A stretch of DNA of 32,960 nt from Fibrobacter sp. (GTDB lineage Bacteria > Fibrobacterota > Fibrobacteria > Fibrobacterales > Fibrobacteraceae). Below the pieces are notes generated by a model. It was given only the letters and a program-made list of their open reading frames with translations. It searched no databases and was not told the origin of the DNA. The stretch is from NCBI GenBank assembly GCA_024398965.1, contig JAKSIF010000030.1:1-32960 (forward strand), given 5' to 3'. Shown here piece by piece: positions 8,300-15,100 of this stretch (position 1 is its first letter; each line of letters begins with the position of its first letter). The position numbers and the translations under genes were made by a program.

Positions 8300-10069
8300 T
8301 TACTTGCTGAGCATCTGATGTGCCACCAGCCAGGCTTTTAGGCGGTTCCAGTTGGTGTCCTTGCTCTTCTTGATGTCGCTAGTTATTCTGAAGGCGACGA
8401 AATCCTGTAATTCCACTACACCTGCAGTAACGAAATTTTCCCTGCCATTGGAAACGTAAGCTTCGTGGTACTGGTAAAGCTTTAGGTCAGTGTCGCGAAT
8501 GATTTCTTCGTCTACAGCCAGGGTCAGGTGATTTCCCACCAGGGCGATGGCGAACTGGTGCTGGTCTCCGTCCAGAAGGGTGGTCGTCTCGGAGAATGCC
8601 AGGTTTTCGTAGGTGGTGTCTTCTTTTGCCTTTCGGGAGTAAATCCTGGTGCAGACATCCTTTGATCCGGCTTCGCACTGACGAACGTCAAAGCCATGCA
8701 GTTCTCCGTTCCAGTCTTCTTCAAGGGTGCTGAACAGAACCGCAGCGGTATCGGACTTGCTTCCGTCAAAGGAAAACTTGAAGCTGTAGCCGATGTTTCT
8801 TTGCTGCAGGAAGCCGTAGCCCTTTTCGATGGTGGTGTTCTGCAGGGATTTTTCTGCCAGCAGGATGTTGCTGCTGATTCCCGTAGGTGTACCATCAATT
8901 AAACTGTAAGATGCCTTATCGGATCCATCGGGGAAGTTTATTTCCGCCCAATAGCTGAAGCCATCGCCCTTTCCGTTGGCGGCTGTAAGTCTGGAAATGT
9001 TGTTGGAGTTTACCAACAATGTATTTGCAGAGATGTTCTTGCCGGAAACGGGAACAATCAAATGTTCCAGAGATTTTTCGCTCAGGGAATCCAGCAGAAT
9101 GCCAGCATCATCGGGAAGAGTGAATGCAAGAGTGTCTGCTGTTGTGCCGGAGATGACGGAATTGTCTAGAGTCTTGCATGTGATTTCTGCAGAACCAGTG
9201 AGGCTTGCTTCGTATTTACAGAGGTTCTGGTAGGCGCCTTCGGGAATTCCTTCCATCAGGAAGGATCCTTGGGCAGAATCCTGCGAGGTAATGGTGTGGC
9301 AGGCTTCTGTGTAATCTAGACAGACCTTATTTCCCACGCTGAAAAAATCATTGTCGAAATGAATCTTCTCGCTGGAAGTCTTATGAAGTTCCTGTTCAGA
9401 AATCTTACGGTATGTATTCTTGTCTTCGGTGACCTTTTCTGCACTTCTCAGGTCTAGCGAAGTGTAGCTAGCTAAAGCCTTATCTTCGGATTCGATGTGC
9501 AAGGTGTAACTGTAGTAAACTACTGGCAAACCCTTTTCATCCAGTTCAAAGTCCAGCTTGTCAGGAATGACTCCTGTATAGGTGGCCTTGTAAACAACGT
9601 CCTTGAAGGAGTAGTTGCCGCTAGCATCCGTAGAAGTTTCCTTCAGGGTGACGGAGTTGCCGGAATACTCGGATTCCACCCTCTTTAGGGACACTCGGAC
9701 GTTCTTGATGGCGTTCCCGTTTTCGTCAACCGCGGATCCCTTTACGTTAATGATGGTGTAGTCGCGGTCGTAAGTGATGCAGGCGATTTCATTGGAATTG
9801 CCAAATTCATCAAGTCCGTTGCCAAAGGCTGTTTGCTTCTTTAGATTGTTGGGAATGCTGGTGGAGCAACCGTTTACATTGACGACCTTGTCGCCGTCCT
9901 CGTTGATGGAGGCTTGCTGGCCCGATTCCGTTTCGGTGAAAACCCCGGCGGTATTTGGATTGTTGTCGGAACAACCCACGATGCCCGCGAGACTCAAACC
10001 CGCAGCGCTTAAACCCGCAACGAAACTACAAATGTCTCGTAATTTGTAATTCATGATTCGTAATTTCAT
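8300..10069 (-). CDS. Lipoprotein with carboxypeptidase-regulatory-like and LamG-like regions (589 aa)
   Basis: A basic N-terminus is followed by a hydrophobic segment and a lipobox I30-V31-G32-Cys33, predicting an exported, lipid-anchored protein. Residues about 105-175 (KGSAVDENGNAIKNVRVSL ... TDASGNYSFKDV) match the carboxypeptidase-regulatory-like/transthyretin-type fold. Residues about 385-570 alternate in a way typical of a LamG/concanavalin-like sandwich (SYWAEINFPDGS, then YSFKFSFDGSKSDTAAVLF). This suggests a surface binding role, possibly for polysaccharide, as inference. The ATG overlaps the stop of regulator A in a TAATG, so the two are translationally coupled. The first codons contain repeated AATTAC units, and a second ATG six codons in is an alternative start. 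Confidence 0.85.
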   Translation of the reverse strand: MKLRIMNYKLRDICSFVAGLSAAGLSLAGIVGCSDNNPNTAGVFTETESGQQASINEDGDKVVNVNGCSTSIPNNLKKQTAFGNGLDEFGNSNEIACITYDRDYTIINVKGSAVDENGNAIKNVRVSLKRVESEYSGNSVTLKETSTDASGNYSFKDVVYKATYTGVIPDKLDFELDEKGLPVVYYSYTLHIESEDKALASYTSLDLRSAEKVTEDKNTYRKISEQELHKTSSEKIHFDNDFFSVGNKVCLDYTEACHTITSQDSAQGSFLMEGIPEGAYQNLCKYEASLTGSAEITCKTLDNSVISGTTADTLAFTLPDDAGILLDSLSEKSLEHLIVPVSGKNISANTLLVNSNNISRLTAANGKGDGFSYWAEINFPDGSDKASYSLIDGTPTGISSNILLAEKSLQNTTIEKGYGFLQQRNIGYSFKFSFDGSKSDTAAVLFSTLEEDWNGELHGFDVRQCEAGSKDVCTRIYSRKAKEDTTYENLAFSETTTLLDGDQHQFAIALVGNHLTLAVDEEIIRDTDLKLYQYHEAYVSNGRENFVTAGVVELQDFVAFRITSDIKKSKDTNWNRLKAWLVAHQMLSK

Positions 10070-10908
10070 TATTTACCCCCGTTGTTCTCAAGATTTGAGA
10101 ACATATGCAAATTCAGCTGATAGACTCCGTCGGCCTTTTCCTTGTCCTGGGAAATGATCCGGCGGGCCTTTGCCTTGAATTCCTGCACCGCCTCCTCCAA
10201 TTCCTTATAGGCGTTGCTGGATATACTGAAAGTCAAGGTGCTCATGATTGTCGGTGCCTTGGGCGGAGTCATTAGCGCCTGCTTTGAAAGTTCAAAGCAC
10301 TGCAGTTGATACTGCTTGATCAGTTCCGCATTGTTGTAGGGCCCGCTGGAAATGGATTCCTGGGTTGGCTTCCAGAAGCCTTCCTCGTTCTTGCGGGCAA
10401 GCCCCAGACGCTGCAGAAGGTCCAGGCTTTCTTTCAACTTGCCCAAGGTGACCTTCGGGAAAATCCTCTTTTGTACGGGAGTCAAGTCGTCGTCAACGTC
10501 CATGGCGTCCAGGATAGCGAACAGGGCGCTGTTGTACCAGTGATTGTAGTACTCGTAGGCGTCGGTGTTCAAAATGCACTTCGGGTCCGGATGCATCTGC
10601 AGCAGTTCTTCCATGGCTGCTTTACGGATGGCGTCGGTCTTTGCCTGGTCCACCTTTACCATGGTCTCGAAGTATTTGGCTTCCTTTTTGTCCAGATTGC
10701 AGATTTCAATGAACTTTGCCACCATGCGGGGGCTCACCTTCTTGCCTCTGAGAACGTCTGCAAAGTAGCTGCGGCTCTTTTCCAAACCAAGAAGACTGCA
10801 AATCTCGGTACGGGTGAACTTGGGGTCCGTCTTTACGCGGACGGCCTGGTATTCTTCCAGATACTTTCTAAAATGGGTGAACTGGTAGATGTCGACAAAC
10901 TTTTCCAT
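10069..10908 (-). CDS. TIGR02147 family protein, regulator A (279 aa)
   Basis: The protein matches the TIGR02147/DUF4423 pattern: an opening FVDIYQFTHFRKYLEEYQ, an HTH-like stretch at about 30-72 (FTRTEICSLLGLEKSRSYFADVLRGKKVSP), then a C-terminal region with PTQESISSGP followed by a long amphipathic helix ending in VYQLNLHMFSNL. The family is strongly expanded in Fibrobacter and is taken to be regulatory, but its DNA targets are, to my knowledge, not defined. It is the first gene of a two-gene unit with the downstream lipoprotein (TAATG overlap) and is divergent from the M6 protease. A candidate promoter flanked by a 9-bp inverted repeat lies immediately upstream, suggesting autoregulation. 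Confidence 0.88.
   Translation of the reverse strand: MEKFVDIYQFTHFRKYLEEYQAVRVKTDPKFTRTEICSLLGLEKSRSYFADVLRGKKVSPRMVAKFIEICNLDKKEAKYFETMVKVDQAKTDAIRKAAMEELLQMHPDPKCILNTDAYEYYNHWYNSALFAILDAMDVDDDLTPVQKRIFPKVTLGKLKESLDLLQRLGLARKNEEGFWKPTQESISSGPYNNAELIKQYQLQCFELSKQALMTPPKAPTIMSTLTFSISSNAYKELEEAVQEFKAKARRIISQDKEKADGVYQLNLHMFSNLENNGGK
10084..10102. promoter_or_regulatory. Palindrome GTTCTCAA-N3-TTGAGAAC before the lipoprotein start
   Basis: Two perfect 8-base arms are separated by 3 bases. They lie in the 3' end of regulator A and 14 bases before the ATG of the coupled lipoprotein gene. The same half-site occurs twice around the regulator promoter, which suggests a protein-binding operator. It could instead act as an RNA hairpin near the lipoprotein ribosome-binding site. 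Confidence 0.5.
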
Positions 10909-10960
10909 GTTCTCAAATATAGTACAAAAACCGCTAAAAAGTGAGAAATATTTTGAGAAC
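10909..10960 (-). promoter_or_regulatory. Promoter of regulator A flanked by a 9-bp inverted repeat
   Basis: GTTCTCAAA (10909-10917) and TTTGAGAAC (10952-10960) form a perfect 9-bp inverted repeat with a 34-base gap. Inside, on the minus strand, are a possible -35 TTCTCA (10942-10947) and -10 TACTAT (10919-10924) with 17-bp spacing. One arm touches the start codon of the TIGR02147 gene at 10908. The layout suits repression by a protein binding both arms. Confidence 0.55.
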
Positions 10961-11030: not shown

Positions 11031-11111
11031 TTCTTGAATTAACACGACTATTGCACGGAATGTTTAGACATTTTGGGGCGTTTCCTGCATTTTTTGGGTA
11101 CTTTTAGGAAT

Positions 11112-13214
11112 ATGAAATTCGATGTACTTGAAAAGTCGCTGTTTGGATTAGGAATTCTATCTGGCTTGGCTTTTGCAGCCCCTGCAAATCCAGCCCCGTT
11201 TACTGTTGAAAACCAGGGTGACGAACTAACCCTCCAGAGGGGTGGCGATGAACATTATCGCTTTACCAGAACCTCCGACGGCTTTCTGGTGGTTCAAGGT
11301 GACGATCAGGTTTACTATTACGCCGATGAACAGGGCGAGGCTTCCAAGTACAAGGCAAGGAACGAAAATGCCCGAACTGCCCAGGAAAAGGCCTTCCTGA
11401 AAAAGCTGAATCGTGAGGCGGTTCTCAAATCCCATCGCGAAAAGCATCCCGACAGGTTTGTTCGACCTAGGGAGCATCAGGCACCGAAGCGAGCACCTTG
11501 GGTGCCTACGGAAAATGTTTCCGGCGGTTCCGATGTTAACGACGATGTTCACCCTTTGTTACGTCTTCCCAGTCCCGAGGCCCATGCCAACGGCACTAAC
11601 CGATTCCCGATTATTCTGGTAACAACTAGCGGTGGCCGGGAATACCTTGACTCTGCAACATTCCACCAGATGTTGAATAAGGAAGGCTATAATGCCAATG
11701 GTTATGTGGGGTCGGTAAGGGATTATTTTGTGGACCAGTCTTCCGGTCGATTTGTTCCGACCTTTGACATCTACAAGGTTTCCGTAAGCAATTCCCTGTC
11801 CAGCTACAAGGATTCCGACTACAAGCTGGTGGTGGATGCGGTAAATGCGATCAAGAATCGTTATCCATCTTTCGATGCGTCGCCCTATGATTCCGACAAG
11901 GATGGAAAGGTGGACGCCGTAGGTGTCTTTTATTCTGGCGACGATGACAGTGGTGTAGGTGGGTATCACTATGAACTGCGTTGGAATGGTGTAGCGAACC
12001 TGAACGTTGGCGGAAAAATCTTTAATTCCTATTACCTGTTGAGTCAGGGAACTTATCCTTACGTAGGCTTGATCCACGAATTCAGCCATTCCATGGGTCT
12101 GATGGATCACTATTGCGTTTACTCAAACGATTGCTATAGTGACTTTACCAACAACCAGTACCAGTCTCCTGGCGCCCATGCCTGGGATGTGATGGCGACG
12201 GGTATGTATAATAACTCCGGCAAGAATCCTCCCAACTACAGCGCCTTTGAACGAAACTTTATGGGCTGGCTGGACTATGAAAATTTGGATACGAAGGCGC
12301 AGGTGACAACTGTTGCACCTTTGCATAAGTCCAATAAGGCGATCAAGATTCCTGTAAGTGGAAATAACAACGAATGGTTCATTCTCGAAAATCGTCAGCA
12401 GAGCAAGTGGGATGCGGGCTTGCCTAATCACGGTCTCTTGATTTGGCATATCGACTACAATCAGAATGCCTGGAATTCCGACGCATTGAATGACGATCCG
12501 GCTCATCAGCATATTGACGTGGTGGAAGCCGGCAATCTCAAGGTGACTGGTTTCTATGATGGGCAAAGTGCGACCCATCTGAAGGACGATTCCTTTCCGG
12601 GTTCACAGAACGTAACAAACTATGGCCCCTTTAAGTCCTGGGGTGGCGTGGACTTGGGCGTAAGTCTTTATGGCATTATGGAAGAAAACAATGATGCTTG
12701 CTTTACCACTCAAAAGGGTGTGAATGTTACAACCTGCAAAGTTGCTTCCAGCAGTTCTGTAAGTGCAGAGTCTAGCAGTTCTGTGCTGCCGTCCAGTAGC
12801 TCTGTGAACGTTTCTAGTTCGTCTATTAAATTTGAGTCTAGTTCTTCCCAGACTCCGGTTGTATCCAGTAGTTCTGTCGCTACATCTAGCAGTTCGCTGA
12901 TTCCTGAGGAATCTTCTTCCAGCGCAGAGCTTGAGGAGTCCAGTTCCTCCGCGTTGGCTGTTTCCGAAGTAAAGGTTTCTGCGAATGGAGTCCGCATGGC
13001 TGTTTCTGCCGGAGTGCTGGAATTGACGCTCCCTGCGGAAGGTGTAAAGGCGGTAAAGGTTTTTGACCTGCAGGGAAACGTAGTCTTTGGGCAGATGGTA
13101 AATGGAAGTCGCGCCTCCTTGAATGTGGGTTCCGTAATTCCTAAGGGCGCCTACATCGTACGGGTAAACCGTGGCAATCAAGTCCTGGGTACTCAGAAAA
13201 TCTGCGTTCCCTAG
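11112..13214 (+). CDS. Secreted M6-family metalloprotease with Ser-rich linker and C-terminal sorting-like domain
   Basis: This is a zinc endopeptidase of the M6 (immune inhibitor A-like) family. From the ATG at 11112 there is a signal peptide ending near AFA/AP (about residue 20), a propeptide-like region to about 130, and a catalytic domain with the motif HEFSHSMGLMD: His322, Glu323, His326 and Asp332. A GGREYLDSATFHQML stretch and a DSDKDGKVDAVGVFY segment also fit the family. Residues about 547-616 form a linker of repeated S4-5 blocks. The last 80 residues (KVFDLQGNVVFG ... GAYIVRV) resemble a type IX-like C-terminal sorting domain. An ATG 39 bases upstream is less likely, as AGGA and the leader support 11112. 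The gene is divergent from regulator A. Confidence 0.92.
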   Translation: MKFDVLEKSLFGLGILSGLAFAAPANPAPFTVENQGDELTLQRGGDEHYRFTRTSDGFLVVQGDDQVYYYADEQGEASKYKARNENARTAQEKAFLKKLNREAVLKSHREKHPDRFVRPREHQAPKRAPWVPTENVSGGSDVNDDVHPLLRLPSPEAHANGTNRFPIILVTTSGGREYLDSATFHQMLNKEGYNANGYVGSVRDYFVDQSSGRFVPTFDIYKVSVSNSLSSYKDSDYKLVVDAVNAIKNRYPSFDASPYDSDKDGKVDAVGVFYSGDDDSGVGGYHYELRWNGVANLNVGGKIFNSYYLLSQGTYPYVGLIHEFSHSMGLMDHYCVYSNDCYSDFTNNQYQSPGAHAWDVMATGMYNNSGKNPPNYSAFERNFMGWLDYENLDTKAQVTTVAPLHKSNKAIKIPVSGNNNEWFILENRQQSKWDAGLPNHGLLIWHIDYNQNAWNSDALNDDPAHQHIDVVEAGNLKVTGFYDGQSATHLKDDSFPGSQNVTNYGPFKSWGGVDLGVSLYGIMEENNDACFTTQKGVNVTTCKVASSSSVSAESSSSVLPSSSSVNVSSSSIKFESSSSQTPVVSSSSVATSSSSLIPEESSSSAELEESSSSALAVSEVKVSANGVRMAVSAGVLELTLPAEGVKAVKVFDLQGNVVFGQMVNGSRASLNVGSVIPKGAYIVRVNRGNQVLGTQKICVP

Positions 13215-14168: not shown

Positions 14169-15026
14169 CTACTTGTCCGCCTTGCCGCCCACCTGGAATA
14201 GGGCGAATTCCATTTGGAAAACCTTGTCGCTGCCTTTGTCCTCTTCGGCGATGAGGGCAATTTCCTTACGGAAGGCGTTGATGCGTTCCACGATGCGTTC
14301 GTAGCCTTCCTGGCTGATGCCCAGGGTAAGGCCCGAAATGTGGCGTTTGCCCGGCGGGTCCCGGTCGATGGAGTCGGCGCCCATCTTGAGGCAGTTCTGG
14401 TGGTAACCGCGAAGTGCCAGTTTGGAGGTGCGGTCACCGGTGGTGATGGCGCTTTCCGTCAGGATGTACTTGCCGTCCTCATCCTTCTTGATGAGTTGGC
14501 ATTCTTCCAAAAGTTTTACAGATTGCTTCGCCTCGTCTGGCGTAATCTTCGGGTTTACCTGCTTGGCCAATGCGGCGTAGTCCCCGTCGAATCCGAACAT
14601 GCCGATAAGGCTGCGGATAAACAGATGGCGGGGGTGGGAATAAATCATGTACTGGGCGTGTCCCAATAGGTGTTGCTTTTCTGCGAAACGCACGACCTTG
14701 AGGACCGCCTGCATCTTTCCAAAGGCGGCATCGCGGTCTTCCGTAGTTTCCGCCTGGTTGAATTCCACCAGGGCTACGAAAAATTCTGTCTCGTGCTTGC
14801 CCAGGCGAAGGCCGGAGGCCACCTTGGGAATACTCTGGGTGGAAAGGTTCTTTTCGCCGTTCATGACGCGGCTGATGAAGTCCTTTGCCTTGAAACCGAT
14901 CTTGTCAGAAAATACGCGCAGGGAGAAAGCCGGGTTGGCTGCCTTCTTCTGGTTGTAATAGTCTTTCAAAAATTCCCTGTAATCCAGGTACTCAAAGACT
15001 TTTTTCTGTTTCTGCGTTTCGGTCAT
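14169..15026 (-). CDS. TIGR02147 family protein, regulator B (285 aa)
   Basis: This is a second member of the TIGR02147/DUF4423 family. It opens with VFEYLDYREFLKDYYNQKK, followed by an HTH-like region at about 34-70 (FSLRVFSDKIGFKAKDFISRVMNGEKNLS), a central helical part, and a C-terminal region with LTESAITTGD and a final helix leading to KVFQMEFALFQVGG. The parallel with regulator A (VYQLNLHMFSNL) is visible by eye, though overall similarity looks low. It is monocistronic, with a terminator just downstream, and is divergent from the pectate lyase gene. The 186-bp intergenic region contains repeated TCTAG-centred motifs that are candidate operators. A regulatory role is inferred from the family. 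Confidence 0.87.
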   Translation of the reverse strand: MTETQKQKKVFEYLDYREFLKDYYNQKKAANPAFSLRVFSDKIGFKAKDFISRVMNGEKNLSTQSIPKVASGLRLGKHETEFFVALVEFNQAETTEDRDAAFGKMQAVLKVVRFAEKQHLLGHAQYMIYSHPRHLFIRSLIGMFGFDGDYAALAKQVNPKITPDEAKQSVKLLEECQLIKKDEDGKYILTESAITTGDRTSKLALRGYHQNCLKMGADSIDRDPPGKRHISGLTLGISQEGYERIVERINAFRKEIALIAEEDKGSDKVFQMEFALFQVGGKADK

Positions 15027-15043: not shown

Positions 15044-15100
15044 TTGCCGTCTAGATGGAATAGAGAAAATAATATTGCCGTTGTCTAGAAACAACGGTAA
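15044..15100. promoter_or_regulatory. TTGCCGT...TCTAGA repeats and hairpin upstream of regulator B
   Basis: TTGCCGTCTAGA (15044-15055) is repeated as TTGCCGTTGTCTAGA at 15075-15089. The second copy sits in an inverted repeat: CCGTTGT (15078-15084), six bases, ACAACGG (15091-15097). A related CCGTTGTCTAGGA occurs at 15188-15200 close to the pectate lyase start. Repeats of this type between divergent genes are typical of operators; the binding protein is unknown. Confidence 0.45.

Follow-up and report, generated by a model that had tools for sequence, protein, structure and literature searches.

Transcription regulators of the XRE/lambda-repressor-like kind, such as HigA, C.AhdI/C.BclI, SinR and P22 c2, mostly bind to inverted repeats. 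They share with regulator A, the Fibrobacter protein described here, a five-helix N-terminal HTH domain and autoregulation from their own promoter, both of which are predictions in the case of regulator A. Regulator A differs from them in its putative operator, a direct repeat with a 12-bp period, and in its C-terminal DUF4423 part, which is winged-helix-like. AraC, GalR and LacI combine a main operator with a distant auxiliary site at approximately helical spacing, such that the promoter is enclosed between the two, and AraC in addition has direct-repeat half-sites and regulates its own gene. Regulator A is reminiscent of these systems in the layout of its sites, a likeness of mechanism alone between different protein families; it differs from them in that the auxiliary element is a single half-site, always located 3' of the main site and on the same strand, and the loop is a predicted one. 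In plant-associated enterobacteria the genes of secreted pectate lyases are repressed by KdgR and PecS, a role predicted here for regulator A as well; these two are of the IclR and MarR types and have other operators. In the literature searched, TIGR02147 is not named, DUF4423 is named in a Bdellovibrio protein list, and no description of a DNA target or regulon was found for TIGR02147/DUF4423 proteins. An autoregulated operator that also serves a regulon is a known kind of system; the family, the operator plan and the targets appear to be undescribed. In the genome report of F. succinogenes S85, whose hydrolysed substrates include pectin and xyloglucan, the regulation of cellulases was called unanswered, with few recognisable regulators nearby (PMC3079729).

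The window, a stretch of 32,960 nucleotides, corresponds to contig C30, one of 151 that make up a 3.59-Mb genome, and both its protein families and its relatives point to the genus Fibrobacter. Regulator A is probably a repressor that controls its own gene together with a pectin/xyloglucan regulon, with GTTCTCAA arms as its predicted operator half-sites. The features of the locus are as follows.

8300..10069 (-): lipoprotein gene, translationally coupled to regulator A through a TAATG overlap; weak CarboxypepD_reg-like match
10069..10908 (-): regulator A, TIGR02147/DUF4423, 279 aa; TIGR02147 291 bits, PF14394 83 bits
10084..10102 (-): palindrome GTTCTCAAATCTTGAGAAC within the final codons of regulator A, encoding FSNLEN; probably incidental
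10747..10755 (-): GTTCTCAGA within regulator A, spelled by the codons for V-L-R in the predicted recognition helix
10909..10917 (+): inverted half-site, GTTCTCAAA on the plus strand and TTTGAGAAC in gene direction, directly 5' of the ATG; close orthologs only
10916..10921 (-): candidate -10 box TATATT, flanked by the direct repeat and the inverted half-site
10942..10960 (-): predicted main operator unit GTTCTCAAAATATTTCTCA, a (G)TTCTCA-N6-TTCTCA direct repeat with a 12-bp period; conserved in orthologs, same motif at enzyme genes
11073..13214 (+): divergent ORF of an M6 metalloprotease-like secreted protein sharing the intergenic region (TIGR03296, 124 bits); start probably the ATG at 11113

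Regulator A matches TIGR02147 (Fsuc_second) over profile positions 2-270 of 272, and its 291 bits exceed the curated cut-off of 50 bits. The first-pass annotation had described the family as multi-copy in Fibrobacter, and this holds, with 24 matches in the same genome and 22-27 in five relatives. Pfam and NCBIfam return DUF4423/TIGR02147 alone, with no AraC, GalR or LacI family domain. The whole-protein model has a pLDDT of 82; a full-length fold search with it gave no significant match, and its residues ~110-190 resemble winged-helix regulators, the best being ArsR-like (Z 8.9). The likeness to XRE proteins became clear only once the N-terminal domain was predicted by itself (90 residues, with the HTH at ~11-90; pLDDT 93). 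Nearly all of its top fold matches are XRE/HigA proteins, at a middling similarity (Z up to 9.1, rmsd 2.0 over 70 residues), with no Foldseek E-value below 0.001 and no Pfam HTH match. Regulator A is thus predicted to comprise an XRE-like N-terminal HTH and a C-terminal winged-helix-like part.

The predicted operator unit upstream of regulator A

The first-pass annotation of the window had described two elements built from the same word, an inverted pair around a candidate promoter (10909-10917 and 10952-10960) and a palindrome at the 3' end of the gene (10084-10102), and their positions were confirmed. The upstream TTTGAGAAC arm lies at 10952-10960, separated from the arm at 10909-10917 by a gap of 34 bp, and GTTCTCAAGATTTGAGAAC is found at 10084-10102. 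The half-sites are over-represented in the window as had been claimed, and the original tally proved too low: the 8-mer GTTCTCAA occurs in seven copies (those at 1583 and 11421 had been overlooked) against an expectation of 1.37, and among 100 dinucleotide shuffles of the window the highest 8-mer count was five. Across the genome the 9-mer GTTCTCAAA shows no enrichment, with 25 copies compared with 37 for the reversed control, and a claim of genome-wide enrichment was dropped. Background frequency had been named beforehand as evidence against an operator; it applies to the number of copies but not to their placement at promoters. Approximately 17 of the 25 copies are intragenic, and six of the roughly eight outside genes belong to promoters, namely those of regulator A and two PL1 pectate lyase genes. 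A single instance of the pair GTTCTCAA-N(0-30)-TTGAGAAC is present in the same genome; matches to GTTCTCAA-N14-TTGAGAAC in eight other genomes (G001, G005, G042, G045, G046, G057, G061 and G072) were set aside as coding sequence of one unrelated gene.

Regulator A orthologs were gathered from 80 genomes of the genus and the DNA 5' of their start codons was read, as the first-pass annotation had proposed. In the 120 bp before the start, TTCTCA is present in 51 of the 52 members of this group (clade A), with at least two copies in 38, so that the half-sites do recur. The sole exception, L195, has the repeat farther upstream (L124). Consecutive same-strand copies are spaced by 12 bp in 31 cases and by 13 bp in 12. 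At the locus itself the arm at 10952 has a direct-repeat partner, the TTCTCA at 10942-10947, which sits at the same 12-bp period and had been missed, and the inverted arm adjoining the ATG is kept in only ~7 close orthologs. The inverted pair can therefore be read as one arm of the true unit plus an extra half-site. What the orthologs conserve is a direct repeat with a 12-bp period, TGTTCTCA-N6-TTCTCA, and not the inverted pair. The candidate -10 box TATATT forms the start of the conserved TATATTTGAGAACATG and is invariant in a four-sequence alignment.

GTTCTCA also occurs in the codons of the predicted recognition helix in 31 of the 52 orthologs. This copy, GTTCTCAGA at 10747-10755 in the window, is out of phase with the other auxiliary sites described below and may be either an auxiliary half-site or a coincidence. 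It is mostly absent from the orthologs that bear the inverted arm at the ATG.

It had been suggested that the 3' palindrome could form an RNA hairpin affecting translation of the lipoprotein, and a leader hairpin may likewise be imagined for the 10909/10960 pair. The palindrome can indeed fold (~-9.5 kcal/mol, with one of 200 shuffles of a 51-nt piece as stable), but it is translated through, is absent from most orthologs and follows the FSNLEN codons, and a role as RNA has little support. Folding of the 10909/10960 pair is no stronger than that of shuffles (z -0.08), on which ground it was rejected as a hairpin, and the direct repeats of most orthologs are unable to pair at all. Among 30 orthologs the palindrome is intact in five and degenerate in one, and it is lost where the residues differ. 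Four of its six codons are identical in six sequences, as is the case for 18 of 275 six-codon windows, so constraint at the DNA level is weakly supported and the palindrome was rejected as a conserved operator. It is probably incidental, or a recently arisen auxiliary site, and an explanation of these elements by RNA structure or chance is extremely improbable.

Pectin and xyloglucan enzyme genes as candidate targets

The strict motif TGTTCTCA-N6-TTCTCA has 87 exact matches in the 80 Fibrobacter genomes and none for the reversed control. All 87 were assigned: 26 to regulator A, 42 to PL1 pectate lyases, eight to PL9 lyases and 11 to GH74 xyloglucanases. The surroundings of 70 were inspected, and these precede regulator A (10), PL1 (41), PL9 (8) and GH74 (11) genes; of the other 17, 16 were placed at regulator A orthologs by coordinates and one at a PL1 gene in G079. 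The PL1 and PL9 identities were confirmed by Pfam, and that of GH74 follows from an E-value of 7e-103 to a solved BNR-repeat glycosyl hydrolase and of <1e-55 to several xyloglucanases. By its position 5' of these secreted PL1, PL9 and GH74 enzymes, the predicted operator would serve beyond autoregulation.

The enzyme genes of the window's own genome lack the strict spaced pattern, and two of its four PL1 genes bear TTTGAGAAC half-sites, one with three (C9:26937-27075) and the other (C10:44931) with one half-site and a TTGAGAAC, its tandem partner carrying one mismatch. A set of PL1 genes was also gathered by protein family and not by motif. In six genomes with regulator A, 13 of 24 such genes have two or three half-sites and the remaining 11 lack them; in five genomes without it half-sites are found at none of eight. 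The latter genomes also lack the site-bearing PL1 types, which suggests that the regulator and its target genes come and go together and does not in itself demonstrate loss of sites after loss of the regulator. Across the 80 genomes, motif and regulator A occur together in 47, the regulator alone in six, the motif alone in two and neither in 25 (Fisher P=6e-13, uncorrected for shared ancestry). One of the two motif-only genomes, G028, encodes a 68% identical homologue with the same FADV recognition residues and GTTCTCA upstream; in the other, G022, the motif is on a 4.6-kb contig 99% identical to other species, which is explained as contamination or transfer.

A further link between TIGR02147 and pectin is seen in L002 and L165 (contig C7 of the same genome, ~102335-105250), where the lipoprotein partner of one TIGR02147 paralog carries a fused PL1 pectate lyase domain; similar lipoprotein-type PL1 genes recur in relatives.

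The position of the repeat relative to the promoter differs between targets. In 40 PL1 and eight PL9 promoters it is antisense to the gene and lies over the -10/+1 region. TTGAC is found 28-30 nt before the operator in 25 of the 40 PL1 promoters, which would place the start of the operator at the end of the -10, and a protein bound there should block transcription. A -10 is recognised at nine of ten regulator A sites, and at these the repeat ends 7-18 nt 5' of it; at GH74 genes the distance is ~39 nt, and in one PL1 type (L099) it is located just 5' of a TTGACA -35. Such positions are typical of activators, and regulator A could accordingly be imagined as a class I/II-like activator or dual regulator with positive autoregulation. 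The 48 lyase sites over -10/+1, mostly behind a good TTGAC -35, argue against this reading, as does the enclosure of the promoter described next, and it is considered rather unlikely, although the sign of regulation is predicted from the position of the sites alone.

Each of the 48 lyase promoters with a reverse-oriented site is accompanied by at least one auxiliary half-site on that strand, 67-153 bp farther upstream, an element of which ~0.09 copies per 200 bp are expected by chance. Their distances fall near 67, 80, 89, 99, 110, 121, 132, 143 and 153 bp, mostly in steps of ~11 bp. After near-identical distances had been collapsed, phasing gave P=0.007 for a 10.5-bp period and P=0.019 once a range of periods had been scanned, for orthologs that are not independent of each other. 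At GH74 genes a half-site is found 88-92 bp away, beyond the promoter, and at the odd PL1 type at 124 bp. In both layouts the promoter is thus enclosed by the main site and the half-site, and the half-site lies 3' of the main site on the same strand. A second site past the promoter at a helically phased distance is what DNA looping calls for, and it is found here among orthologs that are not independent. The simplest reading, which we infer from this geometry, is a repression loop that encloses the promoter.

For regulator A as a repressor the following mechanism is proposed. The TGTTCTCA-N6-TTCTCA direct repeat would set two DNA-binding domains at a distance of about one helical turn. It overlaps or abuts the -35 at the regulator's own promoter, and the regulator-lipoprotein operon would thereby be autoregulated. 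The same operator would control the secreted PL1 and PL9 pectate lyases and GH74 xyloglucanases, covering -10/+1 at the lyases with one or more helically spaced auxiliary half-sites 67-153 bp upstream, and lying upstream at GH74 and the one PL1 type with an auxiliary half-site ~90-124 bp downstream. A promoter between two sites fits a repression loop that may be relieved by a signal, perhaps sensed with the coupled lipoprotein. The motif, its conservation, its association with genes, its geometry and its co-occurrence with the regulator are seen in the sequence, and it is from these that we infer binding by regulator A, repression, looping and relief.

Candidate operator words of the paralogous clades

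The motif is tied to regulator A by co-occurrence and autoregulation only, which would also fit another transcription factor binding it, with regulator A and the lipoprotein as mere members of the pectin regulon. Comparison with the paralogs argues against this. Within 120 bp upstream TTCTCA is found at none of 23 clade B genes, and as single copies at three of 13 clade C genes and 10 of 104 other paralogs. Clade B (58-64% identical) instead has GTACTCA before all 23 genes with 12-bp spacing, mostly in the form TGTACTCA-N6-GACTCA, and this word is absent from clades A and C. Clade C (~45% identical) has TACTAC at 12 of 13 genes, in TACTAC/T repeats again spaced by 12 bp. The predicted recognition regions read RSYFADV[LV]RGKK in clade A, RSY[YF]NDI[VI]KGKK in clade B and RSYFNDV[VL][QK]GK, mostly RSYFNDVVQGK[RK], in clade C, and the third base of the half-site (GTT versus GTA) tracks Ala versus Asn. 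A word that varies with the regulator while the period stays constant is what self-recognition would predict, a hypothesis that draws on three clades. The clade B motif has 35 matches compared with five for its reversed control and is located just 5' of clade B genes, by which clade B looks purely autoregulatory. Since the word shifts among TIGR02147 clades in step with HTH residues, and that of clade B stands before clade B genes alone, binding by another factor is quite improbable. The proposal of an autoregulatory operator for a TIGR02147 regulator is accordingly supported in part, by the recurrence in orthologs and by the paralog words, and had to be revised in its inverted layout, in autoregulation as the sole role and in the palindrome, which is coding sequence.

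Extension of the 12-bp rule to the whole family was tried and given up. In 45 clusters a lag of 12 has the top weighted count (2.95) and a lag of 24 ranks soon after it (1.93). Several other lags fall little short of these, and the rule is therefore claimed for clades A, B and C alone. Repeats upstream of the paralogs in the same genome amount to 69 pairs against nine expected; individually they reach P<0.05 in just six of 23 genes, so that repeats upstream of every paralog are not claimed.

The second TIGR02147 gene of the window (14169-15026) is preceded by a palindrome, CCGTTGTTTCTAGACAACGG, at ~15078-15097, 52-71 nt before its start. The CGTTGTT...GACAACG arms are conserved in three relatives (L309, L288 and L263), so that this gene is probably served by a separate operator. 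A coupled lipoprotein was not found here. A large MKPI.EY group of paralogs (L258, L283, L328, L290, L285) has TTTTTGTAnnnTA-like words just 5' of the -35, often with a second copy ~70 bp upstream, and here the word varies between members.

The coupled lipoprotein and the TIGR02147 family

A related lipoprotein gene lies downstream of regulator A in most orthologous loci, and a gene related to the divergent M6-like ORF is present at 20 of 29 other loci. A lipoprotein-like N-terminus is encoded by the gene that begins -14 to +48 nt after 22 of the 23 TIGR02147 genes of this genome (L001-L023), which makes regulator-lipoprotein coupling a habit of the family. Several of the following genes encode CarboxypepD_reg, laminin-G-like, CBM-like or Fib_succ_major domains, and that of L014 is an NMT1-like substrate-binding protein. 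The coupled lipoprotein is a candidate for the sensor or for an output of the system. In L031 the lipoprotein is 98% identical to the 8300-10069 product and regulator A 86%, with the other orthologous lipoproteins at 48% or less, which suggests a recent exchange of the lipoprotein gene.

Fibrobacter is a leading degrader of fibre in the rumen, and the analysis provides a predicted regulator, operator and target list for its pectin and xyloglucan enzymes, together with a first predicted DNA target for a family that so far has had a number as its only name. It is possible, if still doubtful, that TIGR02147 proteins in general constitute a set of ~25 glycan-responsive paralogs per Fibrobacter genome. 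Each would then have an operator word to itself and most would have a lipoprotein partner, some would govern secreted plant-cell-wall enzymes, and the DNA code could be read from the residues of the recognition helix. If this is true, the TIGR02147 set would be the missing regulatory system of fibre digestion in Fibrobacter.
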